DNA of 64,000 nt from Shimia aestuarii (lineage in GTDB: Bacteria > Pseudomonadota > Alphaproteobacteria > Rhodobacterales > Rhodobacteraceae), in contig NZ_JAKVRD010000008.1 in NCBI RefSeq assembly GCF_022814865.1, forward strand, positions 1 to 64,000, given 5' to 3'. Below, piece by piece: positions 14,025 through 23,046 of this stretch. Every line of letters begins with the position of its first letter. Position 1 is the stretch's first letter. The notes below the pieces were generated by a model that did not search any database, was not told the DNA's origin, and worked only from the letters and a program-made list of their open reading frames with translations. Both the position numbers and the translations under genes were made by a program.

Positions 14025-15722
14025 TCAGACCCCGGTCACCTTCACGTTTTCATGCGGTTCGACGTGAACCGTGCCCTTCTTGCGGATGTGGTTTTCCACC
14101 ACATCCCAGATCTGCGGTCCTTCGGTGCCTTCGTTGACCGAGGCCCAGCCCGCGACCTGATATGTCTTCGAGGGGTCGATCGCCTCGCCGGTCTTGAGCA
14201 GCGTCATCTCGGAGATGCGCGAGCCCTGCGGCTTGGAAACGTCGATCTTGTAGCCCATGCCACCGATCCGAACCATGTCGCCGCCCTGCTGGTAATAGGG
14301 GTCGACGTTGAACAGGTTGTCGGCCACGTCTTCCATGATCACGTGAATGAATTCACCTGTCATTTCAGTGCGATAGGCCTCGCCATAGGTCATCGAGGTC
14401 ACGTTCCAGATATCCTCGCGGGTGATGTCCTGACCCGGCAGGATCGACGGACCCCAGCGCACGCCGGGCGACATGGAGATGTCGGCCTCGCGCTCTTCGA
14501 TGAGCGCCTGGCAAATCAGGTCGTCCCAGGTGCCGTTGAAGTTGCCGCGACGATAGAGAAGCGAGTCGGTTTGGCCGATCACTTCGGTCAGTTGATCGAG
14601 ATAGGGCGCGCGCTGTTCCTCGATGACCTTGGTGACAACCGGGTCTGGCGTGATCACGTCCGAGAAGATCGGGATCAGCTTGTGACGGAAGCCCATCATC
14701 TTGCCATTCTGGATGTCGAGGTCGACGCGGGAGACGAACTTGCCGTTCGAGCCGGAGGCGACAACGATGGTTTCACCAACGAGGACCGGTTCCGGCAGGG
14801 CGTCGTGGGTGTGCCCGGAGAGGATCACGTCGATACCCTTGACGCGGCCCGCCATCTTCTTGTCCACGTCGAAACCGTTGTGCGACAGCACGACGACGCA
14901 CTCTGCGCCCTTGGCGCGAACTTCGTCGACCATCTGCTGCATGTGCTCGTCGCGAATCCCGAAGGAGTATTCCGGGAACATCCAGCCGGGGTTGGCGATC
15001 GGCATATAGGGGAAGGCCTGACCGATGACGGCGATGTTGACGCCACCGCGCTCGAAGAACTTGTAGGGAGGAAACAGTTCTGCGGGCTCGTCCCATTCGG
15101 CGTCAAAGATGTTCTGGCCGAGGGCTGCGAAGGGCAGGCCTTCGACGATCTCGTTCACACGCTCGGAGCCGAGGGTGAATTCCCAGTGGAAGGTCATCGC
15201 GTCAGGCTTCAGCGCGTTCATCACATTGACCATGTCCTGCCCCTGCGTCTGATAGCAGGTGTAGGAGCCGTGCCACGTATCGCCACCGTCGAGCAGGAGC
15301 GCATCGGGGCGGTCCGCGCGGATCGCGTTGATCACAGTAGACACCCGATCCATGCCACCGACGCGGCCATAGGCCTGCGCCAGCGAGGTGAAGTCGTTAT
15401 AGGTCAGGGCGTAATGCGACATCGAACCATCTTCGATGCCATACATCTTGCGGAAATCCGCACCGGTCACGTGCGGCACCTGCCCGCGGGCATCGCCAAC
15501 GCCAAGGTTGATCTCGGGCTCGCGGAAATAGATCGGCATCAGCTGGGCGTGGATGTCGGTCACGTGGATGAGCGAGACATTCCCGTAGGTGTCAAACTGA
15601 AGCAGGTCATCCTGAGTGAGCGTTTGCTGCGCTGCGAGGCGGGCCCAATTGCCAAAGCCGGACGCACCGACCATGGCCGAAGCCGCCATAGAGACCTGAA
15701 GAAAATCGCGACGAGAGATCAT
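14025..15722 (-). CDS. soxB: SoxB, sulfate thiol esterase of the Sox system
   Basis: The 565-residue protein has a Tat signal (ISRRDFLQVSMAASAMVGA) and the dinuclear metal motifs of the 5'-nucleotidase/metallophosphoesterase fold: HVTDIHAQL, LLDGGDTWHG, VLSHNGFD and LSGHTHD. It hydrolyses sulfate from the S-sulfonate carried by the SoxY C-terminal cysteine. The ATG at 15722 gives MISRRDFLQ, the N-terminus seen in Paracoccus. Upstream lie an ATTC-N8-GAAT operator and, beyond it, a terminator for soxA, so soxB appears to begin a second transcription unit (soxBCD). Confidence 0.96.
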   Translation of the reverse strand: MISRRDFLQVSMAASAMVGASGFGNWARLAAQQTLTQDDLLQFDTYGNVSLIHVTDIHAQLMPIYFREPEINLGVGDARGQVPHVTGADFRKMYGIEDGSMSHYALTYNDFTSLAQAYGRVGGMDRVSTVINAIRADRPDALLLDGGDTWHGSYTCYQTQGQDMVNVMNALKPDAMTFHWEFTLGSERVNEIVEGLPFAALGQNIFDAEWDEPAELFPPYKFFERGGVNIAVIGQAFPYMPIANPGWMFPEYSFGIRDEHMQQMVDEVRAKGAECVVVLSHNGFDVDKKMAGRVKGIDVILSGHTHDALPEPVLVGETIVVASGSNGKFVSRVDLDIQNGKMMGFRHKLIPIFSDVITPDPVVTKVIEEQRAPYLDQLTEVIGQTDSLLYRRGNFNGTWDDLICQALIEEREADISMSPGVRWGPSILPGQDITREDIWNVTSMTYGEAYRTEMTGEFIHVIMEDVADNLFNVDPYYQQGGDMVRIGGMGYKIDVSKPQGSRISEMTLLKTGEAIDPSKTYQVAGWASVNEGTEGPQIWDVVENHIRKKGTVHVEPHENVKVTGV

Positions 15723-15761: not shown

Positions 15762-15777
15762 ATTCGCATGTGTGAAT
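15762..15777. promoter_or_regulatory. putative SoxR/SqrR-type operator upstream of soxB
   Basis: The sequence ATTCGCATGTGTGAAT matches ATTC-N8-GAAT, the site class reported for SqrR and related persulfide-sensing ArsR repressors. It lies 40 bases upstream of the soxB start. A second perfect palindrome, TTACATGTAA, lies at 15781-15790. The likely binder is the SoxR encoded at 20211. Confidence 0.72.
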
Positions 15778-15791
15778 TCATTACATGTAAC

Positions 15792-15829
15792 AAAGGCCCG
15801 CCCCGTTTTACGCTCGGGAGCGGGCCTTT
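15792..15829 (-). terminator. intrinsic terminator between soxA and soxB
   Basis: AAAGGCCCGC (15792-15801) and GCGGGCCTTT (15820-15829) form a perfect 10-bp stem, with further CCCG/CGGG pairing inside the loop. It starts seven bases after the soxA stop on the minus strand and is followed by TTTGTT. It should end most soxXYZA transcripts before soxB. Confidence 0.8.
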
Positions 15830-15835
15830 GCGGTG

Positions 15836-16690
15836 TTAGTTGCGGACCGAGGGCCCTTCGACCGAGAGGCCGTTGCCGCGCGAGGCGACATAAAGCTCAA
15901 GCGCGACGAACTCGTCCGAACCCGGCTTGTAGGTCTCGGCGCGGGTATCGCGCACGCAGCCCTTGAAGCGACCGTGGGCTGTGGTGAGTTTCGCGTTCTT
16001 CAGACGATACACCGGGAAGCCGTTGATCTGGCCCTGGCTGAGATGGTCCGAGCGAATGTGGTTGCCATAGTTTTCTTCGTGGCAGGACGCGCAGGACAGG
16101 TCGAGCTGACCAGTGCGGGTATAGTAGAGCTCTTTGCCCCACTCCCAGGTCGCTTCGGCCGGGCCGTCGATCGCCACGTTGACCGGCATGCCGCGCGACT
16201 GCACGGAGATCAGAGCCTCCATACGGGCCATTTGTGCGCCGGATTTCTTCCAGGCTTCTGCGCCCATACCGTCGGTGAGGCAGTCGTTGATCTGCATCTC
16301 CATGGTGTAGACTTTCTCCTTGCTGTCATTCCATTTCGGATAGACAGCGCGGACGCCTTTCATGCTTTCTTCGACGTCACCGTGGCAGGACGCGCAGGAC
16401 TTGCCCTTGGTGCCCATCTCGGTGTTCCAGTCATCCATCGCCTGTTCGACGAAGATCATGCCGGGGTTGTCGAAATCATCTGCCTGCATCACCTGGGTCT
16501 CATCCGAGCGGAAGTGCCAGCCCGACATGATGGTGTCCAGTGCGTCCGACAGGTGTGCCGGCGCGGCGGTCTTGGTGACCATTTCTGTCTCGCCATTGAG
16601 GACGAGCGTGTCGTCGTCCGGATCCGCCAGCGCCAACGCCGGCAGCGAGATCACAAGTGCGGCAATCGCAGTTGTTGCCTTGAATTTCAT
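15836..16690 (-). CDS. soxA: SoxA, diheme cytochrome subunit of SoxXA
   Basis: The 284-residue protein has a signal peptide (MKFKATTAIAALVISLPALALA) and two CASCH heme motifs (99-103 and 200-204). The family's catalytic cysteine, which becomes a persulfide heme ligand, is C245 in RFKGCVRDTR. It belongs to the diheme SoxA type found in Paracoccus and Rhodovulum. With SoxX it joins thiosulfate to the SoxY cysteine, releasing two electrons in the periplasm. It lies 75 bases downstream of soxZ across a spacer containing a stem-loop, and is followed by a terminator. Confidence 0.96.
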   Translation of the reverse strand: MKFKATTAIAALVISLPALALADPDDDTLVLNGETEMVTKTAAPAHLSDALDTIMSGWHFRSDETQVMQADDFDNPGMIFVEQAMDDWNTEMGTKGKSCASCHGDVEESMKGVRAVYPKWNDSKEKVYTMEMQINDCLTDGMGAEAWKKSGAQMARMEALISVQSRGMPVNVAIDGPAEATWEWGKELYYTRTGQLDLSCASCHEENYGNHIRSDHLSQGQINGFPVYRLKNAKLTTAHGRFKGCVRDTRAETYKPGSDEFVALELYVASRGNGLSVEGPSVRN

Positions 16691-16713
16691 CGCATTTCCT
16701 CCCTTGGAACCGC

Positions 16714-16736
16714 CCTGCCCCTCTCGTGGGGGCAGG
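16714..16736 (-). other. stem-loop in the soxZ-soxA spacer
   Basis: CCTGCCCC (16714-16721) and GGGGCAGG (16729-16736) form an 8-bp stem with a seven-base loop, located 24 bases upstream of the soxA start. There is no T-run after it on the minus strand, so it is more likely an mRNA processing or stability element than a terminator. Confidence 0.5.
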
Positions 16737-16765
16737 ACAGATGTGCCTTGGTCTAGCGGCCAGAT

Positions 16766-17095
16766 TTAGCCGATAGCGACAGCTTTGGTTTCGTCGTACA
16801 CGTCGCCATCGTCGTCATACCACGTGAACTTGAGCTCACCCGCTTCCGGGATCGTCGCTTCAAATTCGAAATACGGGTTGGTCGAGATCGCGGGCTCAAG
16901 GGTCACGTCGATCACGTTCTTACCGTTAAAATCGCAGGTAAAACGGTTGATGATCGAACGCGGGATGAGGTTGCCCTCTTTGTCCTTGCGCTGACCCGAT
17001 TCCATCTTGTGAGAGATGAGGGTCTTGATGGTCACAACTTCGCCGGCTTCTGCCTTCTTCGGAGCTTTGACGCGGGGTTTCACACCAGATGCCAT
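16766..17095 (-). CDS. soxZ: SoxZ, partner of the sulfur carrier SoxY
   Basis: The 109-residue protein has no signal peptide, as is typical, since SoxZ is exported with SoxY. Family features are PRVKAPKKAEAGEVVTIKTL, ISHKMESGQRKDKEGNLIPR, and the C-terminal KFTWYDDDGDVYDETKAVAI. It forms the heterodimer with SoxY that carries sulfur intermediates between the Sox enzymes. It lies 18 bases downstream of soxY in the soxXYZA unit. The length is normal. Confidence 0.95.
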   Translation of the reverse strand: MASGVKPRVKAPKKAEAGEVVTIKTLISHKMESGQRKDKEGNLIPRSIINRFTCDFNGKNVIDVTLEPAISTNPYFEFEATIPEAGELKFTWYDDDGDVYDETKAVAIG

Positions 17096-17113
17096 GTTCC
17101 TATTCTCCTCTGA

Positions 17114-17530
17114 TTAGCCGCCGCAGCCGCCGATGGTGACTTTGACGGTCGACGATGCCTTTGCGAACGAGCCGTCCGCCATCTTGGCAATGGCAACCAC
17201 GTCCTGGGTGCCGGCAAGACGGATACGGGTCGACGCCATCTGCGAGCCAGCCAACTCGCCGAAGTTGAAGGTCGCAACGCCCGGGGTCGGGTTGCCCGTT
17301 GCGAGCAGCAGGATCGACACGGCGCCCTCTGCATCAACGCTGATCGGAACGGTGTTGCCGTTCTCAGCGATCTCCGGGGCGGTCAGGTCAACGCCGCCAT
17401 CGGCAACGTCCGCACCGCCGGTGAATGCTGCGATCGCTTCGTCGGCGGCAGCGTGCACACGGAAGGGAAGAACGGTCAGCGCCGCCGCCCCTGCACCGAG
17501 TGCCAGAGTTTCACGTCTCGTGAAGTCCAT
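17114..17530 (-). CDS. soxY: SoxY, sulfur-carrier protein
   Basis: The 138-residue protein has a Tat-type signal (MDFTRRETLALGAGAAALTV) and the flexible C-terminal swinging arm VTIGGCGG. The cysteine in GGCGG carries the covalent sulfur intermediate. It is the central substrate carrier for SoxXA, SoxB and SoxCD and is the likely export partner of SoxZ, encoded 18 bases downstream. The gene follows soxX by 37 bases. Confidence 0.97.
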   Translation of the reverse strand: MDFTRRETLALGAGAAALTVLPFRVHAAADEAIAAFTGGADVADGGVDLTAPEIAENGNTVPISVDAEGAVSILLLATGNPTPGVATFNFGELAGSQMASTRIRLAGTQDVVAIAKMADGSFAKASSTVKVTIGGCGG

Positions 17531-17567
17531 CTGATTCTCCTTGGGTATTAAGTTTATGTGTCCCTCG

Positions 17568-18044
17568 TCACTCGTCTTTGAGTGTCGAGAGGAAAGCGAT
17601 TACATCTTCGATCTGCTGGGCGCTCAGGAGCGGATCCAGCGGACCTTCCGCTGCTTTGCCGGTATAGGCGTTGCCCGGACGGGTGAACCCGTCGACAACA
17701 TAATAGGCCGGCATCACGGTGCCCTCGTAGGTCTTCTTGGCGTTGCTGAGGATGCCGCGCAGTTCGGCAAGGTTCCAGCGATCACCAACCCCGTCCAGCG
17801 ACGGACCGACGTTCCCGTGGAACGGCGCTTCGCTCAACGCGGTGACCTGGTGGCAAGCAATACAGTTGCCCAGCGATTTCGTGGTCATCACCTTGGCACC
17901 GTTCGCGGGATCGCCCGCAGTGCCCGACAGCGATGTTTCCACGGCGCCATATTCCGTATAGGCCACATCGGCAGGGGCCACCGGGCCGGCGATTGCGGTG
18001 CCGGCGGCAAGCGAGGCCACCAGTGTCAATGTCGAAAGCTTCAT
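17568..18044 (-). CDS. soxX: SoxX, monoheme cytochrome subunit of SoxXA
   Basis: The 158-residue secreted cytochrome has a signal peptide (MKLSTLTLVASLAAGTAIAG) and one heme motif, CIACH (61-65), followed by the typical GNVGPSLDGVGDRW segment. A methionine in TVMPAYY is the likely second axial ligand. It pairs with SoxA to start thiosulfate oxidation. It is the first gene of soxXYZA. A perfect-arm ATTC-N8-GAAT operator lies 83 bases upstream within the 196-base spacer that separates it from soxW, so the unit likely has its own regulated promoter. Confidence 0.95.
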   Translation of the reverse strand: MKLSTLTLVASLAAGTAIAGPVAPADVAYTEYGAVETSLSGTAGDPANGAKVMTTKSLGNCIACHQVTALSEAPFHGNVGPSLDGVGDRWNLAELRGILSNAKKTYEGTVMPAYYVVDGFTRPGNAYTGKAAEGPLDPLLSAQQIEDVIAFLSTLKDE

Positions 18045-18126
18045 GTTTCCTCCCTTTGGCTACCTTACTCTGGCTAGGTAAGCTCGGTATACCGTAGGCT
18101 ACCGGTCCCCCTTAACGCAACAACAA

Positions 18127-18142
18127 ATTCACGTTAGTGAAT
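18127..18142. promoter_or_regulatory. putative SoxR/SqrR-type operator upstream of soxX
   Basis: The sequence ATTCACGTTAGTGAAT is an inverted repeat with perfect 6-base arms (ATTCAC/GTGAAT) and matches ATTC-N8-GAAT. It lies in the soxW-soxX spacer, upstream of soxX. It is the best operator candidate in the window for the ArsR-family SoxR. Confidence 0.78.
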
Positions 18143-18240
18143 AATTGCACGCGAAATCGCGGGCCAGAGCGGCTTTTCATTTGTTTTCAATAGACCCCGG
18201 CGCGCGCAATAATCATATCCGCGCGCCGCATGTTTTGGAT

Positions 18241-18819
18241 TCAATCGCCCTGCTCGGCGCGACGCTCCCGAATCATCCGCGCATGGTAGCGCTGGAAATC
18301 CTCTTCGGACTGGTCGAGATAGCGCTCTTCGAGCACCCATGTCAGCAGGTCATATGTCGTGCCCGGCTTGAACGCGCCCGGCATGACGGCAACGGCCTGG
18401 CGGATCGCGGGGGTTTCTTCGTCCAGGTCCGGCGGCATGAAGATCATAGTGGGCGTGAACATCACCCCCCATTTGCGCGCCGCCGCGCGTTCCTCCATCG
18501 CTTCGCCATCGGTGTCGACCATCTCGGTCGCGCCGTGCAGGTTGATGCGGATCGGATAGTAATCCTCAGTCAGGCGCGCCTGCACCTTCTCATCCTTGAA
18601 GGAGGTCTCGTGCATCTCGCGGCAATATATGCAGCCGCGCTGCTCTACGATGATGAGAAGGCGTTTGCCCTCTTCCTTGGCCGTGGCAAAGTCTTCTTGC
18701 AGGTCTTTCCAGGTGTCCTGATACCAATCGACCTTGTGCAGGCCGTCCGCATCCACATCCGCGGCCCAAACCGGCACGGCAAAGAGAACGGCGAGAAAAG
18801 CTGTGAAAAGGCGTGTCAT
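18241..18819 (-). CDS. soxW: SoxW, periplasmic thioredoxin
   Basis: The 192-residue protein has a signal peptide (MTRLFTAFLAVLFAVPVWA) and a thioredoxin-like domain with the active site GCIYC (C63, C66). In Paracoccus, SoxW is a periplasmic thioredoxin that receives electrons from SoxV. The ATG at 18819 has a GGGAGGG site upstream; an ATG 30 bases further 5' would add a non-signal leader. soxV ends 35 bases upstream on the same strand, and the two form the soxVW unit. A 196-base spacer separates it from soxX. Confidence 0.9.
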   Translation of the reverse strand: MTRLFTAFLAVLFAVPVWAADVDADGLHKVDWYQDTWKDLQEDFATAKEEGKRLLIIVEQRGCIYCREMHETSFKDEKVQARLTEDYYPIRINLHGATEMVDTDGEAMEERAAARKWGVMFTPTMIFMPPDLDEETPAIRQAVAVMPGAFKPGTTYDLLTWVLEERYLDQSEEDFQRYHARMIRERRAEQGD

Positions 18820-18854
18820 ATATGGTCCCTCCCCTGGCACTGATGACATTGCGA

Positions 18855-19595
18855 TCAGCCGATCCCCGAAAGCCAGGACGGCCCGTATTCGATCATAAAG
18901 TTGGCGATGTGATTCACGCTATTGGTCGCGATGAGTATAGCGAAGATGAGCAGCATCACCCCCATCACTTTTTCCACGTAAGGCAGATAGCGGCGGTTGC
19001 GGTGCATCCACTTCAGGAACGGCTGGGCAAACAGCGCGGCGATGATGAAGGGGGCGGTCATGGCAAGACCATAGACGAAGAGCAAAAGCGCGCCGCGCCA
19101 CAGATCGCCCATGCCTGAGGCCACCATCAGGATCGAGGCCAGCGCCGGGCCAACGCAGGGCGTCCAGCCAAAGCCGAAGGCCAAGCCCATGACATAGGCG
19201 CCAAGGATGGTCTTGGGTTCGGCGGTGCTTTCGATCTTGGCCTCGCGGTAAAACAGGCCGATCTTGAGGATGCCAAGGAAATGCAGACCAAACAGCGCCA
19301 GAAGCGCCGCCGCCGCATAGGACAGGGGCTGTTTCCATTGGGCGAAGGCCTGACCGAGCGCGGTTGCCCCCATGCCGAGCAGCACGAAGATCGTGGTCAC
19401 CCCAAGCGCAAAGAAGATCGCAGAGATCACCAGGCGGCGTTGCGCCCCCTTGGCGATTCCGCCGTCGCCTTGCAGTTCCGACATGGAGATCCCGGCCATG
19501 TAGCACAGGTAAAACGGCACCATGGGTAGAACACAGGGTGTGAAAAACGATAGAAGCCCGGCAACGGCCGCTCCCACGAAGGATATTTCAAGCAT
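18855..19595 (-). CDS. soxV: SoxV, CcdA/DsbD-like transmembrane thiol-electron carrier
   Basis: The 246-residue integral membrane protein has about six hydrophobic segments and the CcdA-family motifs FFTPCVLPMVPFYLCYMAGI and FGWTPCVGPALASI; their cysteines form the intramembrane redox pair. It moves reducing equivalents from cytoplasmic thioredoxin to periplasmic SoxW and thereby to the Sox proteins. A very strong purine-rich site (GGAGGAGGGGAGG) precedes the ATG. It is divergent from soxS across an AT-rich spacer of 73 bases that must hold both promoters. Confidence 0.93.
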   Translation of the reverse strand: MLEISFVGAAVAGLLSFFTPCVLPMVPFYLCYMAGISMSELQGDGGIAKGAQRRLVISAIFFALGVTTIFVLLGMGATALGQAFAQWKQPLSYAAAALLALFGLHFLGILKIGLFYREAKIESTAEPKTILGAYVMGLAFGFGWTPCVGPALASILMVASGMGDLWRGALLLFVYGLAMTAPFIIAALFAQPFLKWMHRNRRYLPYVEKVMGVMLLIFAILIATNSVNHIANFMIEYGPSWLSGIG

Positions 19596-19668
19596 CCTCC
19601 CCTCCTCCTTGCCTTATGCATATATTCAAATTATATTTTGCGTAATGCGCTCGTCTACCGGATTTTTC

Positions 19669-20037
19669 ATGACGCTACGTTCTGTGCTCTTGTCTGTCGC
19701 CCTTCTGTTTGGCTCTCTCCTGCCCGCCTGGGCCGTGGAGCTTGTCATCGTCGAGCAGAAAGGCTGTTATACCTGTCGCCTCTGGAACGAGGAGATTGCC
19801 CCGATCTACCCCAAGACCGAGGCCGGGCAGTTTGCGCCGTTGCGCCGCGAGGACCTTCGCAAGGCACCGGACGATCTTCGCTATGCGCGCGCGATCAACT
19901 ACACGCCGACCTTCCTTCTGATCGACGAAGGCCGGGAGGTTGCCCGTCTCGAAGGCTATCCGGGTGAGGATTTTTTCTGGTGGCATATCGAAAAGATGCT
20001 GGCCGACAACACTGCATTCGAAGGCAGCACCCGTTAA
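19669..20037 (+). CDS. soxS: SoxS, periplasmic thiol-disulfide oxidoreductase
   Basis: The 122-residue protein has a signal peptide (MTLRSVLLSVALLFGSLLPA) and a thioredoxin-like core with GCYTC (C33, C36) and the cis-proline segment NYTPTFLLID. In Paracoccus pantotrophus, SoxS reactivates SoxY by reducing its cysteine. I placed the start at ATG 19669; an in-frame ATG at 19645 would lengthen the leader by eight residues, and neither has a clear ribosome-binding site. It is divergent from soxV and lies 173 bases upstream of soxR. Confidence 0.88.
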   Translation: MTLRSVLLSVALLFGSLLPAWAVELVIVEQKGCYTCRLWNEEIAPIYPKTEAGQFAPLRREDLRKAPDDLRYARAINYTPTFLLIDEGREVARLEGYPGEDFFWWHIEKMLADNTAFEGSTR

Positions 20038-20210
20038 GACACAGGCGCCGGACCGCCCAACGCGACGCAGCGTTCCGGATAGACGCCCCCCGAAACAGCG
20101 TTGCATGAGGGATAGAAACGACGGCCCGGGTCCGAAACAGGCACCCGCGAAGGCACAAAGAGGCCCGGCCTCCCCAACACGGGGACCCGACAGGAGCGAG
20201 GACAGATCCC

Positions 20211-20549
20211 ATGGCACTTCCGGTGTTCAACGACGACATCAGCGACGAAGAAATGGACGCCATGGTCGCCAATGCGACCAAGGCCTCGAACTTCATGAAA
20301 GCAATCAGCCACGAAGGTCGATTGATGATCCTCTGTCACCTCGTCAATGGCGAGAAATCAGTGACCGAACTCGAAGACCTCCTCTCGGCTCGGCAGGCCG
20401 CCGTCTCGCAGCAACTCTCCCGCCTGCGCCTCGAAGGGCTCGTCATTCCGCGCCGCGAAGGCAAGACGATCTATTATAGATTGGCGGATCACCGTCCAAG
20501 GCGTATACTCGAAGTGGTCTACGATCTCTTCTGCAACGGTAACGACTGA
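20211..20549 (+). CDS. soxR: SoxR, ArsR-family persulfide-sensing repressor of the sox genes
   Basis: The 112-residue protein has an ArsR winged helix-turn-helix (SVTELEDLLSARQAAVSQQL, then LRLEGLVIPRREGKTIYYRL). Two cysteines, C42 (MILCHLV) and C108 (DLFCNG), are 66 residues apart, the same spacing as C41/C107 in SqrR of Rhodobacter capsulatus, which form a polysulfide bridge in the presence of persulfides. No CxC metal site is visible. It likely represses sox transcription at ATTC-N8-GAAT sites upstream of soxX and soxB until sulfane sulfur accumulates. An AGGAG-containing leader precedes the ATG. soxT follows after 54 bases. Confidence 0.92.
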   Translation: MALPVFNDDISDEEMDAMVANATKASNFMKAISHEGRLMILCHLVNGEKSVTELEDLLSARQAAVSQQLSRLRLEGLVIPRREGKTIYYRLADHRPRRILEVVYDLFCNGND

Positions 20550-20603: not shown

Positions 20604-21671
20604 ATGCTGGCACTTTTGGAATATCTGGGCGGCGCCAATATGGTCGCCCTATTGGGCTGTCTCGGGGGCGTGGTCCTCGGACTTGCGGCGCGACTTGGAC
20701 GGTTCTGCACCCTCGGCGCGATTGAAGACCTTCTCTACGGTGGCTCCGACCTGCGCATGCGCATGTGGGGCATTGCCATCGGCACCGCAGTGCTTGGCTC
20801 CTTCACGCTCATTGCATCGGGGCATCTCGAACCGGAAGCCTCCTTCTACTACTCGATCCGCTGGATGCCGCTGGCCTCGGTGCTCGGGGGGCTGATGTTC
20901 GGCTATGGCATGGCGCTTTCAGGGAACTGCGGTTATGGCGCGATTGCGCGGCTTGGCGGCGGCGACCTGCGCAGCTTTGTGATCGTCCTTGTGATGGGGG
21001 TTTCGACCTACGTTGTCCTCGCCGGGCCGCTTGCGCCCCTGCGCAACTGGGCCTTTCCACAAATCGAAGTCACAAGTGCCGTTCCGCCCAGCATCGCGCA
21101 TCAGCTTGGCGCATGGACCGGGGTTGCCCCGGCCTTTGTCGGCCTTGCCATCGGGGCGCTGATCCTCATCGGCGCGCTGGCCTCGCGTGAAATGCTACGC
21201 GAGCCGAAATCGATCTTCTGGGCCGTTGCCGTGGGCCTTGCCGTGGTCTCGGGCTGGGCCGGAAGCCAATGGGTCTCCAGCAATAGTTTCAGCGCCACGC
21301 CGCTCGTGTCGCATAGTTTCTCCGCCCCGGTGGGCGAAAGCATCCTCTGGGCCATGAATGGCTCGGTGCGCCCGCTCTCCTTTGCGGTGGGATCGGTCGC
21401 GGGAGTCTGGCTCGGGGCCTTCATCGGGTCGATGATCCGGGGGCATTTCCGTTGGGAAGCCTGCGAAGACCCGCGCGAACTCCGCCGTCAGATCGTCGGC
21501 GCGATGATCATGGGCGCGGGCGCGATCCTCGCCATCGGTTGCACTGTGGGGCAAGGCATCACCGCCTTTTCGCTTCTGGCGATTTCCGCGCCGGTCACCT
21601 TCCTCGCGATCTTTGCCGGGGCGGCCATTGGTCTGCGCCAGTTGATCGAAGGCTTCCAGCCCGCGGAATAA
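20604..21671 (+). CDS. soxT: SoxT, YeeE/YedE-family sulfur-compound transporter
   Basis: The 355-residue membrane protein has about nine to ten hydrophobic segments and the two YeeE/YedE repeats. Three family cysteines are visible: C35 (RFCTLGAIEDLLYGG), C109 (GNCGYGAIARLGGG) and C313 (IGCTVGQGITAFSLLA). In YeeE (TsuA) such cysteines relay thiosulfate across the membrane. SoxT proteins occur in sox clusters of alphaproteobacteria next to soxR and are thought to import sulfur compounds or feed the sensor. Here it is the third plus-strand gene after soxS and soxR. The transported species is inferred. Confidence 0.85.
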   Translation: MLALLEYLGGANMVALLGCLGGVVLGLAARLGRFCTLGAIEDLLYGGSDLRMRMWGIAIGTAVLGSFTLIASGHLEPEASFYYSIRWMPLASVLGGLMFGYGMALSGNCGYGAIARLGGGDLRSFVIVLVMGVSTYVVLAGPLAPLRNWAFPQIEVTSAVPPSIAHQLGAWTGVAPAFVGLAIGALILIGALASREMLREPKSIFWAVAVGLAVVSGWAGSQWVSSNSFSATPLVSHSFSAPVGESILWAMNGSVRPLSFAVGSVAGVWLGAFIGSMIRGHFRWEACEDPRELRRQIVGAMIMGAGAILAIGCTVGQGITAFSLLAISAPVTFLAIFAGAAIGLRQLIEGFQPAE

Positions 21672-21690: not shown

Positions 21691-22101
21691 TTACCGCTGC
21701 ACCGTCTCGAGATAGGCCAGAAGCGCCGCAAGCGGGCGCGGTGTGGGCGTAAGCGTGCCGTCATCGGTCTCGACCGGGACGAGATCGCCCTCGAGCAACT
21801 CGCCAAACTCCGGCATGTCATCCCCGCCCTCGCCCTTGAGATAGCCATCCACCTGGCTCAGCACGCGGTTGACCGGGAAGGCGCCGCCATTGCCGCGCGC
21901 CAAGGTGGTCAGGTCCGCAGGCGCCGGCACCATGCCCGCCGCGACATCCCCCTGCCCGCGCCCATCCGCGCCATGACACATGGCGCAATGCGCGTCATAG
22001 ATTGCCCGGCCTTCGCGGTTCTCGGGCATTTCATATGCCGTACACGCCAGAAGCACCGCCACGGCTCCGCCCGTGGCCAAGATCGTCAGCGCCGTTTTCA
22101 T
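21691..22101 (-). CDS. lipoprotein monoheme cytochrome c (copy 1 of 3)
   Basis: The 136-residue protein has a lipoprotein signal with lipobox LLAC (C20) and one heme motif, CAMCH (39-43). A GRGQGD turn follows, then PADLTTLARGNGGAFPVNRV and DDMPEFGELL, whose methionine is the likely sixth ligand. It should be a membrane-anchored periplasmic electron carrier. Its start overlaps the stop of the next cytochrome gene by 4 bases. The set of three converges on soxT. I do not know a named family member with a proven role. Use as an electron acceptor for the Sox enzymes is an inference from position. Confidence 0.85.
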   Translation of the reverse strand: MKTALTILATGGAVAVLLACTAYEMPENREGRAIYDAHCAMCHGADGRGQGDVAAGMVPAPADLTTLARGNGGAFPVNRVLSQVDGYLKGEGGDDMPEFGELLEGDLVPVETDDGTLTPTPRPLAALLAYLETVQR

Positions 22102-22508
22102 TTCTGCACCCCCTCAAGGTAGACCGTAAGATCGGCCACCGGTTGGCTTGTCATGATCGGCTGGCCCGTCTCGGTCTTCAGCGCGAGATCGCGCCCCTCA
22201 AAGAGCGAACCATAGACCGGCATCGGGCTCCCGTGCGAGACCAGCGGGTCGCGCCCGTCGATCCGCTTGATGACCCGGACAAGCGGAAAGACCCCGTCGT
22301 TTCCGGCACTGAGCGCCGTCAGGTCGGAGGGCTTGATGATCATCACCCCCGCCATCGGCCCCTTGCCCTCAAGATCGACGCCGTGACAGGCGACACAATG
22401 CTCAAGATAAAGCGCCTCGCCCCGTTCCGGATCGCCTTCGGCGGCCCCAAGACAAGCGCCAAGCACGCTCAACACGGCCGAAGCTGTCAATGCAGGTAAG
22501 TATTTCAT
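22098..22508 (-). CDS. lipoprotein monoheme cytochrome c (copy 2 of 3)
   Basis: The 136-residue protein has lipobox LGAC (C19) and heme motif CVACH (38-42), followed by PSDLTALSAGNDGVFPLVRV, IDGRD and SPMPVYGSLFEG, whose methionine is the likely axial ligand. The order of motifs matches the two flanking cytochromes, so the three are tandem paralogs. It overlaps copy 1 by 4 bases and lies 26 bases after copy 3. Copies 2 and 1 both end in a YLE(G/T)VQ-type helix. Confidence 0.85.
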   Translation of the reverse strand: MKYLPALTASAVLSVLGACLGAAEGDPERGEALYLEHCVACHGVDLEGKGPMAGVMIIKPSDLTALSAGNDGVFPLVRVIKRIDGRDPLVSHGSPMPVYGSLFEGRDLALKTETGQPIMTSQPVADLTVYLEGVQK

Positions 22509-22534
22509 CTCGCTCTCCTCCCCCGAAAAGGGGT

Positions 22535-22900
22535 CTATTGCTGGATGCTCTCAAGATAGGCGACCACTGCCTCAAGCTGACTATCCGGTGCGATCCCCGA
22601 CACATCCAGATCCGAGAAATCAGGCATCGCCCCGCTAAAGTGCGCATCCCGGCCCTCGCCTGTGATCGAAAGCGCCACCCGTGTCGCCGGAAACGTCCCG
22701 CCATTCTCGCGCGCAAGACGCGTCAGATCGGGCGGCAGGCTCAGAAGCTGGTCGGCAAAATATCCATCACCGCGCCCGCTCTCTCCATGACACATCACGC
22801 AATGCAGATCATAGACCGTGCGGCCACGTGACTCGACCGACGCACATCCAATCACAACGCCCGCAAGGGCCAGTGCCGCTATTCCCAATGCTCGCCGCAT
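22535..22900 (-). CDS. lipoprotein monoheme cytochrome c (copy 3 of 3)
   Basis: From the ATG at 22900 the protein is 121 residues. It has lipobox VIGC (C19) and heme motif CVMCH (34-38), followed by GESGRGDGYF, PPDLTRLARENGGTFPATRV and SGAMPDFSDL. I chose this start because AGGAG lies 10 bases upstream. Two upstream in-frame ATGs would add a highly charged leader. It is the first gene of the three-cytochrome unit, with the promoter presumably in the spacer shared with the divergent thioesterase gene. Confidence 0.82.
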   Translation of the reverse strand: MRRALGIAALALAGVVIGCASVESRGRTVYDLHCVMCHGESGRGDGYFADQLLSLPPDLTRLARENGGTFPATRVALSITGEGRDAHFSGAMPDFSDLDVSGIAPDSQLEAVVAYLESIQQ

Positions 22901-23046
22901 CCGTCGCTTTCTCCTGTCGTCCTGTGGCCCCATGATCGAGCCCATCACAAGGGCGCGCCTTGATCCCGATCATATGCAGGTGACATTTCCCGGAACAACC
23001 GCCATTCTCGCCTACGACAGGACATTCGCGGGGGGAGACGCGCACC

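Follow-up and report, generated by a model that had tools for sequence, protein, structure and literature searches.

SoxR and the palindromes of the sox cluster

The first 64,000 nucleotides (nt) of contig NZ_JAKVRD010000008.1 of Shimia aestuarii (assembly GCF_022814865.1), called the window below, carry a sox cluster together with a gene for an ArsR-family regulator, soxR. The genes soxX, soxY, soxZ, soxA and soxB score above the NCBIfam cut-offs; soxV, soxW and soxT take their names partly, and soxS wholly, from gene order (Table 1), an order kept in nearly all related loci whose contig is long enough. Two spacers of the cluster hold the palindrome ATTC-N8-GAAT, which is also the site deduced for SqrR of Rhodobacter capsulatus (PMC9774250). 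The reading developed below, to which we would give a probability of roughly 80%, is that SoxR is an SqrR-type ArsR repressor binding this palindrome at three points of the sox cluster, that the code extends to other sulfane-sulfur genes, and that it is probably shared with a paralogue.

SoxR itself is a winged-helix protein of the ArsR/SmtB type (NF033788, 81.1 bits with a cut-off of 55), and both its linkage to sox and the soxSRT gene order hold. Its best match among solved chains is the 13ct/6o8l set, titled ‘Transcriptional regulator, ArsR family’, which we take to be R. capsulatus SqrR. The alignment runs ungapped over residues 15-111, with 62 of 97 positions identical and cysteines at 42 and 108 in both; the native SqrR numbering of the pair is presumably C41/C107. 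The original prediction had placed C42 and C108 of SoxR at the spacing of the SqrR pair, and the alignment, with the cysteines in register, bears this out. Among 72 SoxR proteins of relatives, 71 have C42 and 70 have C108, a count made without locus L081, whose sole SoxR-like match sits about 10 kilobases (kb) from sox.

The two candidate operators, upstream of soxX and of soxB, are the only exact matches to the motif in the window. Both had been predicted, as had the perfect six-base arms of the soxX site (ATTCAC/GTGAAT); in the soxB site five of the six bases pair. As a mere count this is ordinary: shuffled sequence gives 1.20 matches on average, and at least two in 37 of 100 shuffles. One might then suppose that both palindromes are chance matches in AT-rich spacers. 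Their placement is less ordinary, as both fall within the 309 bases that the soxW-soxX and soxA-soxB spacers together make up, where the chance of two or more is about 1.7e-5 at the shuffle rate, for spacers picked post hoc.

What decides the matter is conservation. SoxB, used as query, brought up at least 592 candidate stretches, and the best 80 of these were compared together with the window (81 loci). Each spacer was extracted with 30 nt of each flanking gene and could be measured in 70 to 79 loci, the others being lost to contig ends, missing genes or length limits; expectations come from a first-order Markov model of each spacer. Exact sites, with the window counted, occur in 54 of 71 soxW-soxX spacers (0.15 expected), 22 of 79 soxA-soxB spacers (0.35 expected) and 7 of 75 soxB-soxC spacers (0.25 expected). 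Six control spacers yielded none in 439 (V-W 71, X-Y 73, Y-Z 76, Z-A 76, S-R 73, R-T 70). With one mismatch in the eight half-site bases allowed, soxA-soxB sites rise to 57 of 79, where 6.05 are expected. A MAFFT alignment of the soxW-soxX spacers, made blind to the motif, likewise has the half-sites and an adjoining TTGTTG among its best conserved columns. Conservation in place, so far above the composition-matched expectation, leads us to reject chance palindromes; the probability left to them is negligible.

Table 1. Genes, candidate operators and related features. Positions are those of the window unless a locus label is given.
Feature	Position	Strand	Remarks
soxB	14025-15722	-	TIGR04486
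Candidate operator upstream of soxB	15762-15777		ATTC-N8-GAAT, exact; 39 nt before ATG
Hairpin, then TTGTT	15790-15831	-	soxA-soxB spacer; -30.9 kcal/mol, z -5.1; likely terminator or attenuator
soxA	15836-16690	-	TIGR04484
soxZ	16766-17095	-	TIGR04490
soxY	17114-17530	-	TIGR04488
soxX	17568-18044	-	TIGR04485
Candidate operator upstream of soxX	18127-18142		ATTC-N8-GAAT, exact; 82 nt before ATG
soxW	18241-18819	-	Weak DsbD-model matches below cut-off; named from synteny
soxV	18855-19595	-	DsbD-like; below-cut-off match and synteny
Degenerate operator-like element	19616-19631		6/8; soxV-soxS spacer, 20 nt before soxV
Predicted soxV promoter	19630-19657	-	TAGACG-N16-TATAAT; consensus scan, 10/12; -10 box overlaps degenerate element
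soxS	19669-20037	+	Divergent from soxV; no Pfam or NCBIfam match; named from position and synteny
soxR	20211-20549	+	ArsR-family repressor, 112 amino acids; exactly two cysteines, Cys42 and Cys108
soxT	20604-21671	+	YeeE/TsuA-like transporter directly 3' of soxR; NCBIfam TsuA models, below cut-off; soxSRT order as in PMC11582611
Orphan SoxR/SqrR-like sensor (L126)	G000:C23:23877-24206		Cys35/Cys101, 66 apart; 58% identical to SoxR
TsoY-family membrane protein	L133 240-1466 (G000:C12)		Exact upstream site
hemA (5-aminolevulinate synthase) promoter site	L013 1501-1516 (G000:C4:210363)		ATTC-N8-GAAT
AidB-like metallo-hydrolase	L008 535-1455 (G000:C3)		Model below cut-off

Beyond soxT, on the minus strand at 21691-22948 of the window, lie three consecutive small open reading frames (ORFs) with CxxCH motifs, apparently c-type cytochromes as judged by eye.

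Probable control points at soxB, soxC and soxV-soxS

The soxB operator directly follows a hairpin with a short T run in the soxA-soxB spacer. Under a rule set by us, which asks for a folding energy of -15 kcal/mol or lower ahead of a T run, 60 of the 79 soxA-soxB spacers contain a hairpin, and hairpin and operator tend to occur together: 50 of the 57 spacers with a site of seven or eight matching bases carry the hairpin, compared with 10 of the 22 without such a site (Fisher, 2e-4). A terminator after soxA may make soxB depend on its own, repressed promoter; the strong hairpin ahead of the operator is a possible explanation of why soxB needs a promoter of its own.

In seven loci (L032, L033, L037, L043, L044, L054 and L084) an exact operator stands before soxC, and five of the seven are without a soxB operator. 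More generally, soxC sites of seven or eight matches turn up in 7 of 18 loci that lack the soxB site, as against 6 of 56 that have it (Fisher, 0.012). Spacers with an exact soxC site are also longer, 85-128 nt as compared with a median of 33. ATTC is preceded by A in 92% of the half-sites at soxX and in 79% of those at soxC, and mostly by C or T elsewhere.

A narrower view of this arrangement, that of the original prediction, would have SoxR control only soxXYZA and soxBCD, through two operators; the window does hold just two exact sites. The divergent soxV-soxS spacer speaks against it. The prediction had found no clean site there, only an ATTC half-site. For the strict motif this is right, the best match being 6/8; the half-site, though, belongs to a degenerate element whose columns are conserved in the spacer alignment. 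Sites of at least 7/8 are found in 38 of 74 such spacers, where 6.8 are expected, and 35 of 74 agree with TAATNTGAATATGTGAAT at no fewer than 13 of its 17 positions (window counted; the consensus was derived from the same spacers, and the figure comes without a chance expectation). The copy in the window reads TAATTTGAATATATGCAT. It overlaps the -10 box of a soxV promoter which, as a prediction, is the best promoter-like match of the region (four such matches in 4.6 kb, with 1.4 expected). In Bradyrhizobium, deletion of soxR derepresses soxS, soxV, soxW and soxY (PMC5748708), which fits a functional soxV-soxS site. From its conservation the element is likely a third sox operator; with the soxC sites of some relatives, it leaves the claim of two main controlled promoters too narrow.

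Sites beyond sox and a second sensor

The two-operator view meets further difficulty in the rest of the genome. The host genome (3.97 Mb) has 30 exact ATTC-N8-GAAT sites, 14 of them intergenic by a crude ORF rule (the two sox sites and 12 others) and 16 inside likely genes; a relaxed scan for AWWTTCA-N6-TGMATWT with one mismatch gives 27 strand-wise matches. Of the 12 intergenic sites outside sox, seven stand before genes that could be named, and these seven genes were compared in 61 genomes of the family, the genome of origin excluded, over 200 nt upstream and with the region 3' of the gene as control. The expected number of exact upstream sites lies between 0.02 and 0.20 across the seven sets, and the downstream controls hold no exact site in any. 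Upstream, an exact site is present in 17 of 21 relatives for a rhodanese, 15 of 21 for TsoY, 10 of 14 for a YgaP-like transmembrane protein, 14 of 27 for an AidB-like hydrolase, 12 of 25 for a SoxH-like hydrolase and, among the best 30 matches in each case, 11 of 28 for hemA (one locus, L273, had too little upstream DNA) and 6 of 29 for a SulP permease.

Upstream alignments, made for rhodanese, SoxH-like, hemA, TsoY and SulP, qualify these counts. The site columns stand out for rhodanese, SoxH-like and hemA, the hemA alignment being of the 13 closest of 29 sequences; all 11 hemA sites, moreover, come from the 12 closest matches, in which conservation extends to other upstream columns as well. 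For TsoY they are less distinct, as relatives have the site twice in tandem, which lets the alignment shift from one copy to the other. The SulP gene, which lies beside a sulfide:quinone reductase-like gene, was rejected as a target, its site columns being no better conserved than the rest. The regulon is thus probably larger than two promoters, at least six non-sox genes being preceded by copies of the site that relatives retain, and SoxR control confined to the two exact sox operators becomes very doubtful.

Some further observations belong here. The AidB-like gene adjoins the SoxH-like gene in several genomes, and a second SoxH-like gene of the host genome (L186) has no site, the best match being 5/8. 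Exact sites also occur near mbfA (L003) and at L004, L015, L127 and L138, the last (L138 1501, G000:C28) before a 78-residue ORF without family matches.

Which protein reads these sites is a separate matter. The genome encodes an orphan sensor with the same cysteine spacing as SoxR (Table 1); its best solved match is the same SqrR chain, and the two sensors have similar recognition stretches, with RQAAVSQ in common. Its neighbour, by eye, is an Lhr-type helicase-like gene, which is absent beside the paralogue's relatives; its clade includes 14 other genomes of 61 sampled. One may therefore suppose that the paralogue, or both sensors, reads the sox operators, with SoxR minor or sharing the work. 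A similar arrangement may hold for sHdrR and SoxR of Hyphomicrobium, where both regulators bind the same four fragments (PMC12423496).

Three observations favour SoxR over this alternative. First, in a tree of 62 rows (60 different; 111 columns, the SqrR row trimmed to residues 15-111), the SoxR clade has support of 100/97, and 34 of its 36 rows are sox-linked, which marks soxR as the sox-linked sensor; two more sox-linked rows fall outside, as does SqrR, on a long branch, so that these 111 columns do not group SoxR with SqrR. Second, the site score before soxX follows the divergence of SoxR: it correlates with SoxR identity at rho 0.57 and with SoxB identity at 0.44, and the partial correlation with SoxR given SoxB is 0.45 (70 loci). 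Third, in genome G007, where SoxR is the sole sensor match (searches at 1e-15 and 1e-12), exact sites still precede the rhodanese, TsoY and SoxH-like genes, with a 7/8 site before the AidB-like gene and none before SulP; it seems that SoxR on its own can suffice for such sites to stay in use. In G012 the sole sensor match lies outside the SoxR clade, and the rhodanese site is kept. From these two genomes the core motif seems readable by either sensor type. We accordingly regard this alternative as rather unlikely. The predicted link between SoxR and its operators gains from the conservation at both promoters and from the fall of the score as SoxR diverges, and is made less secure by a second sensor with the same cysteine spacing.

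Several points weigh against a SoxR acting at three sox operators, and these should be set out together. The case for binding is built on sequence conservation. The loci compared are related to one another, so that the tests overstate their independence; SoxB identity, too, tracks the site score. The sox sites do not single out SoxR, because the paralogue has its own pair, Cys35 and Cys101, and a similar recognition stretch. At soxA-soxB, the form commoner in relatives than the exact site is ATTC-N8-GCAT inside a longer ATATGCGCATAT palindrome, which leaves room for a different reader there. A separate terminator scan misses the hairpin in that spacer, the scan admitting loops up to 8 and the hairpin having one of 9. 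Between soxS and soxV only 1 of 74 spacers has an exact site (0.25 expected, window counted), the window's own copy matches at 6/8, and part of the TAAT conservation may be that of the promoter, because the element overlaps the soxV -10 box.

A proposed sulfane-sulfur operator code

In the preferred reading, with SoxR at three sox operators, control would most likely run as follows. In the thiol state a SoxR dimer would bind the operator before soxX, abutting the conserved TTGTTG block; it would bind before soxB, just past the presumed terminator that follows soxA; and it would bind the degenerate site over the soxV -10 box, and from there its own soxSRT operon could come under its control as well. 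With thiosulfate at hand, sulfane sulfur would enter through SoxT (SoxT1B is described as signalling to SoxR; PMC11582611), a polysulfide bridge would form between Cys42 and Cys108, SoxR would leave the DNA, and transcription of soxVW, of soxXYZA and of soxB onwards would follow. The opening by sulfane sulfur is proposed by analogy with SoxR of Hyphomicrobium, a sulfane-sulfur-responsive repressor that polysulfide releases from the sox-region DNA to which it binds (PMC10451225). A mass shift of +32 to +96 Da after polysulfide is reported for the Hyphomicrobium protein.

The closest likeness is to SoxR of Hyphomicrobium denitrificans (PMC10451225), Paracoccus pantotrophus and Pseudaminobacter salicylatoxidans, the last two as described in later papers: all are ArsR repressors of sox genes with the soxSRT order. 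Two conserved cysteines are stated for the Hyphomicrobium and P. salicylatoxidans proteins, and release by sulfane sulfur is shown for that of Hyphomicrobium. What differs is that here the code is defined by conservation, that the soxB operator stands behind a hairpin, and that a degenerate site lies between soxV and soxS. The main texts of two Hyphomicrobium papers (PMC10451225, PMC12423496) give no SoxR operator consensus (‘ATTC’ and ‘palindrom’ occur in neither, ‘consensus’ not in the second), though inverted and direct repeats are called conspicuous in the first; earlier SoxR literature is represented by citing papers, so a consensus may have been published. The type of repressor was thus already known from Hyphomicrobium and the motif from SqrR; what is added is the operator map and the wider set of conserved sites.

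With SqrR, SoxR shares the register of the cysteines and the deduced site; it differs in being encoded inside the sox cluster, SqrR standing outside the supported SoxR clade. BigR of Xylella and Agrobacterium belongs to the same regulator family, and SoxR matches a Xylella-type BigR chain (3pqj); on the BigR model NF040642, however, it reaches 93.3 bits, below the cut-off of 155. For Escherichia coli YgaV we know of no link to sox. It is a homologue of SqrR and BigR with a similar site in the ygaVP promoter, and one of its targets, katG, is without such a site (PMC9774250); its similarity to SoxR is far lower (E 2e-10, against 7e-37 for the SqrR chain).

A broader perspective, which we hold only tentatively and think somewhat less probable than its negation, makes the sox operon one branch of a genome-wide sulfane-sulfur regulon. 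A single operator code would be read interchangeably by SoxR and at least one SqrR-type paralogue, the flanks (AAATTCA at soxX and soxC, YATTC elsewhere) would tune which of them binds, and the reach would take in rhodanese, TsoY, the YgaP-like, SoxH-like and AidB-like genes and, in close relatives, hemA. R. capsulatus SqrR regulates sqr and a rhodanese (PMC9995734); hemA occurs in none of the nine papers searched that mention SqrR, the search being largely without subscription journals. If this were true, persulfide would increase the haem available to the sox cytochromes, and haem would weaken the hold of SqrR-type repressors. SqrR binds haem and then binds DNA less strongly, though in normal growth only 1.7% of the protein carries haem (PMC9143464).

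The operator map gives SoxR a testable operator code and adds a likely third sox operator. It would tie the control of sox to other sulfur genes, some of them poorly understood (TsoY, YgaP-like, AidB-like), and it raises the question of how one DNA site serves two sensors that carry the same pair of cysteines.

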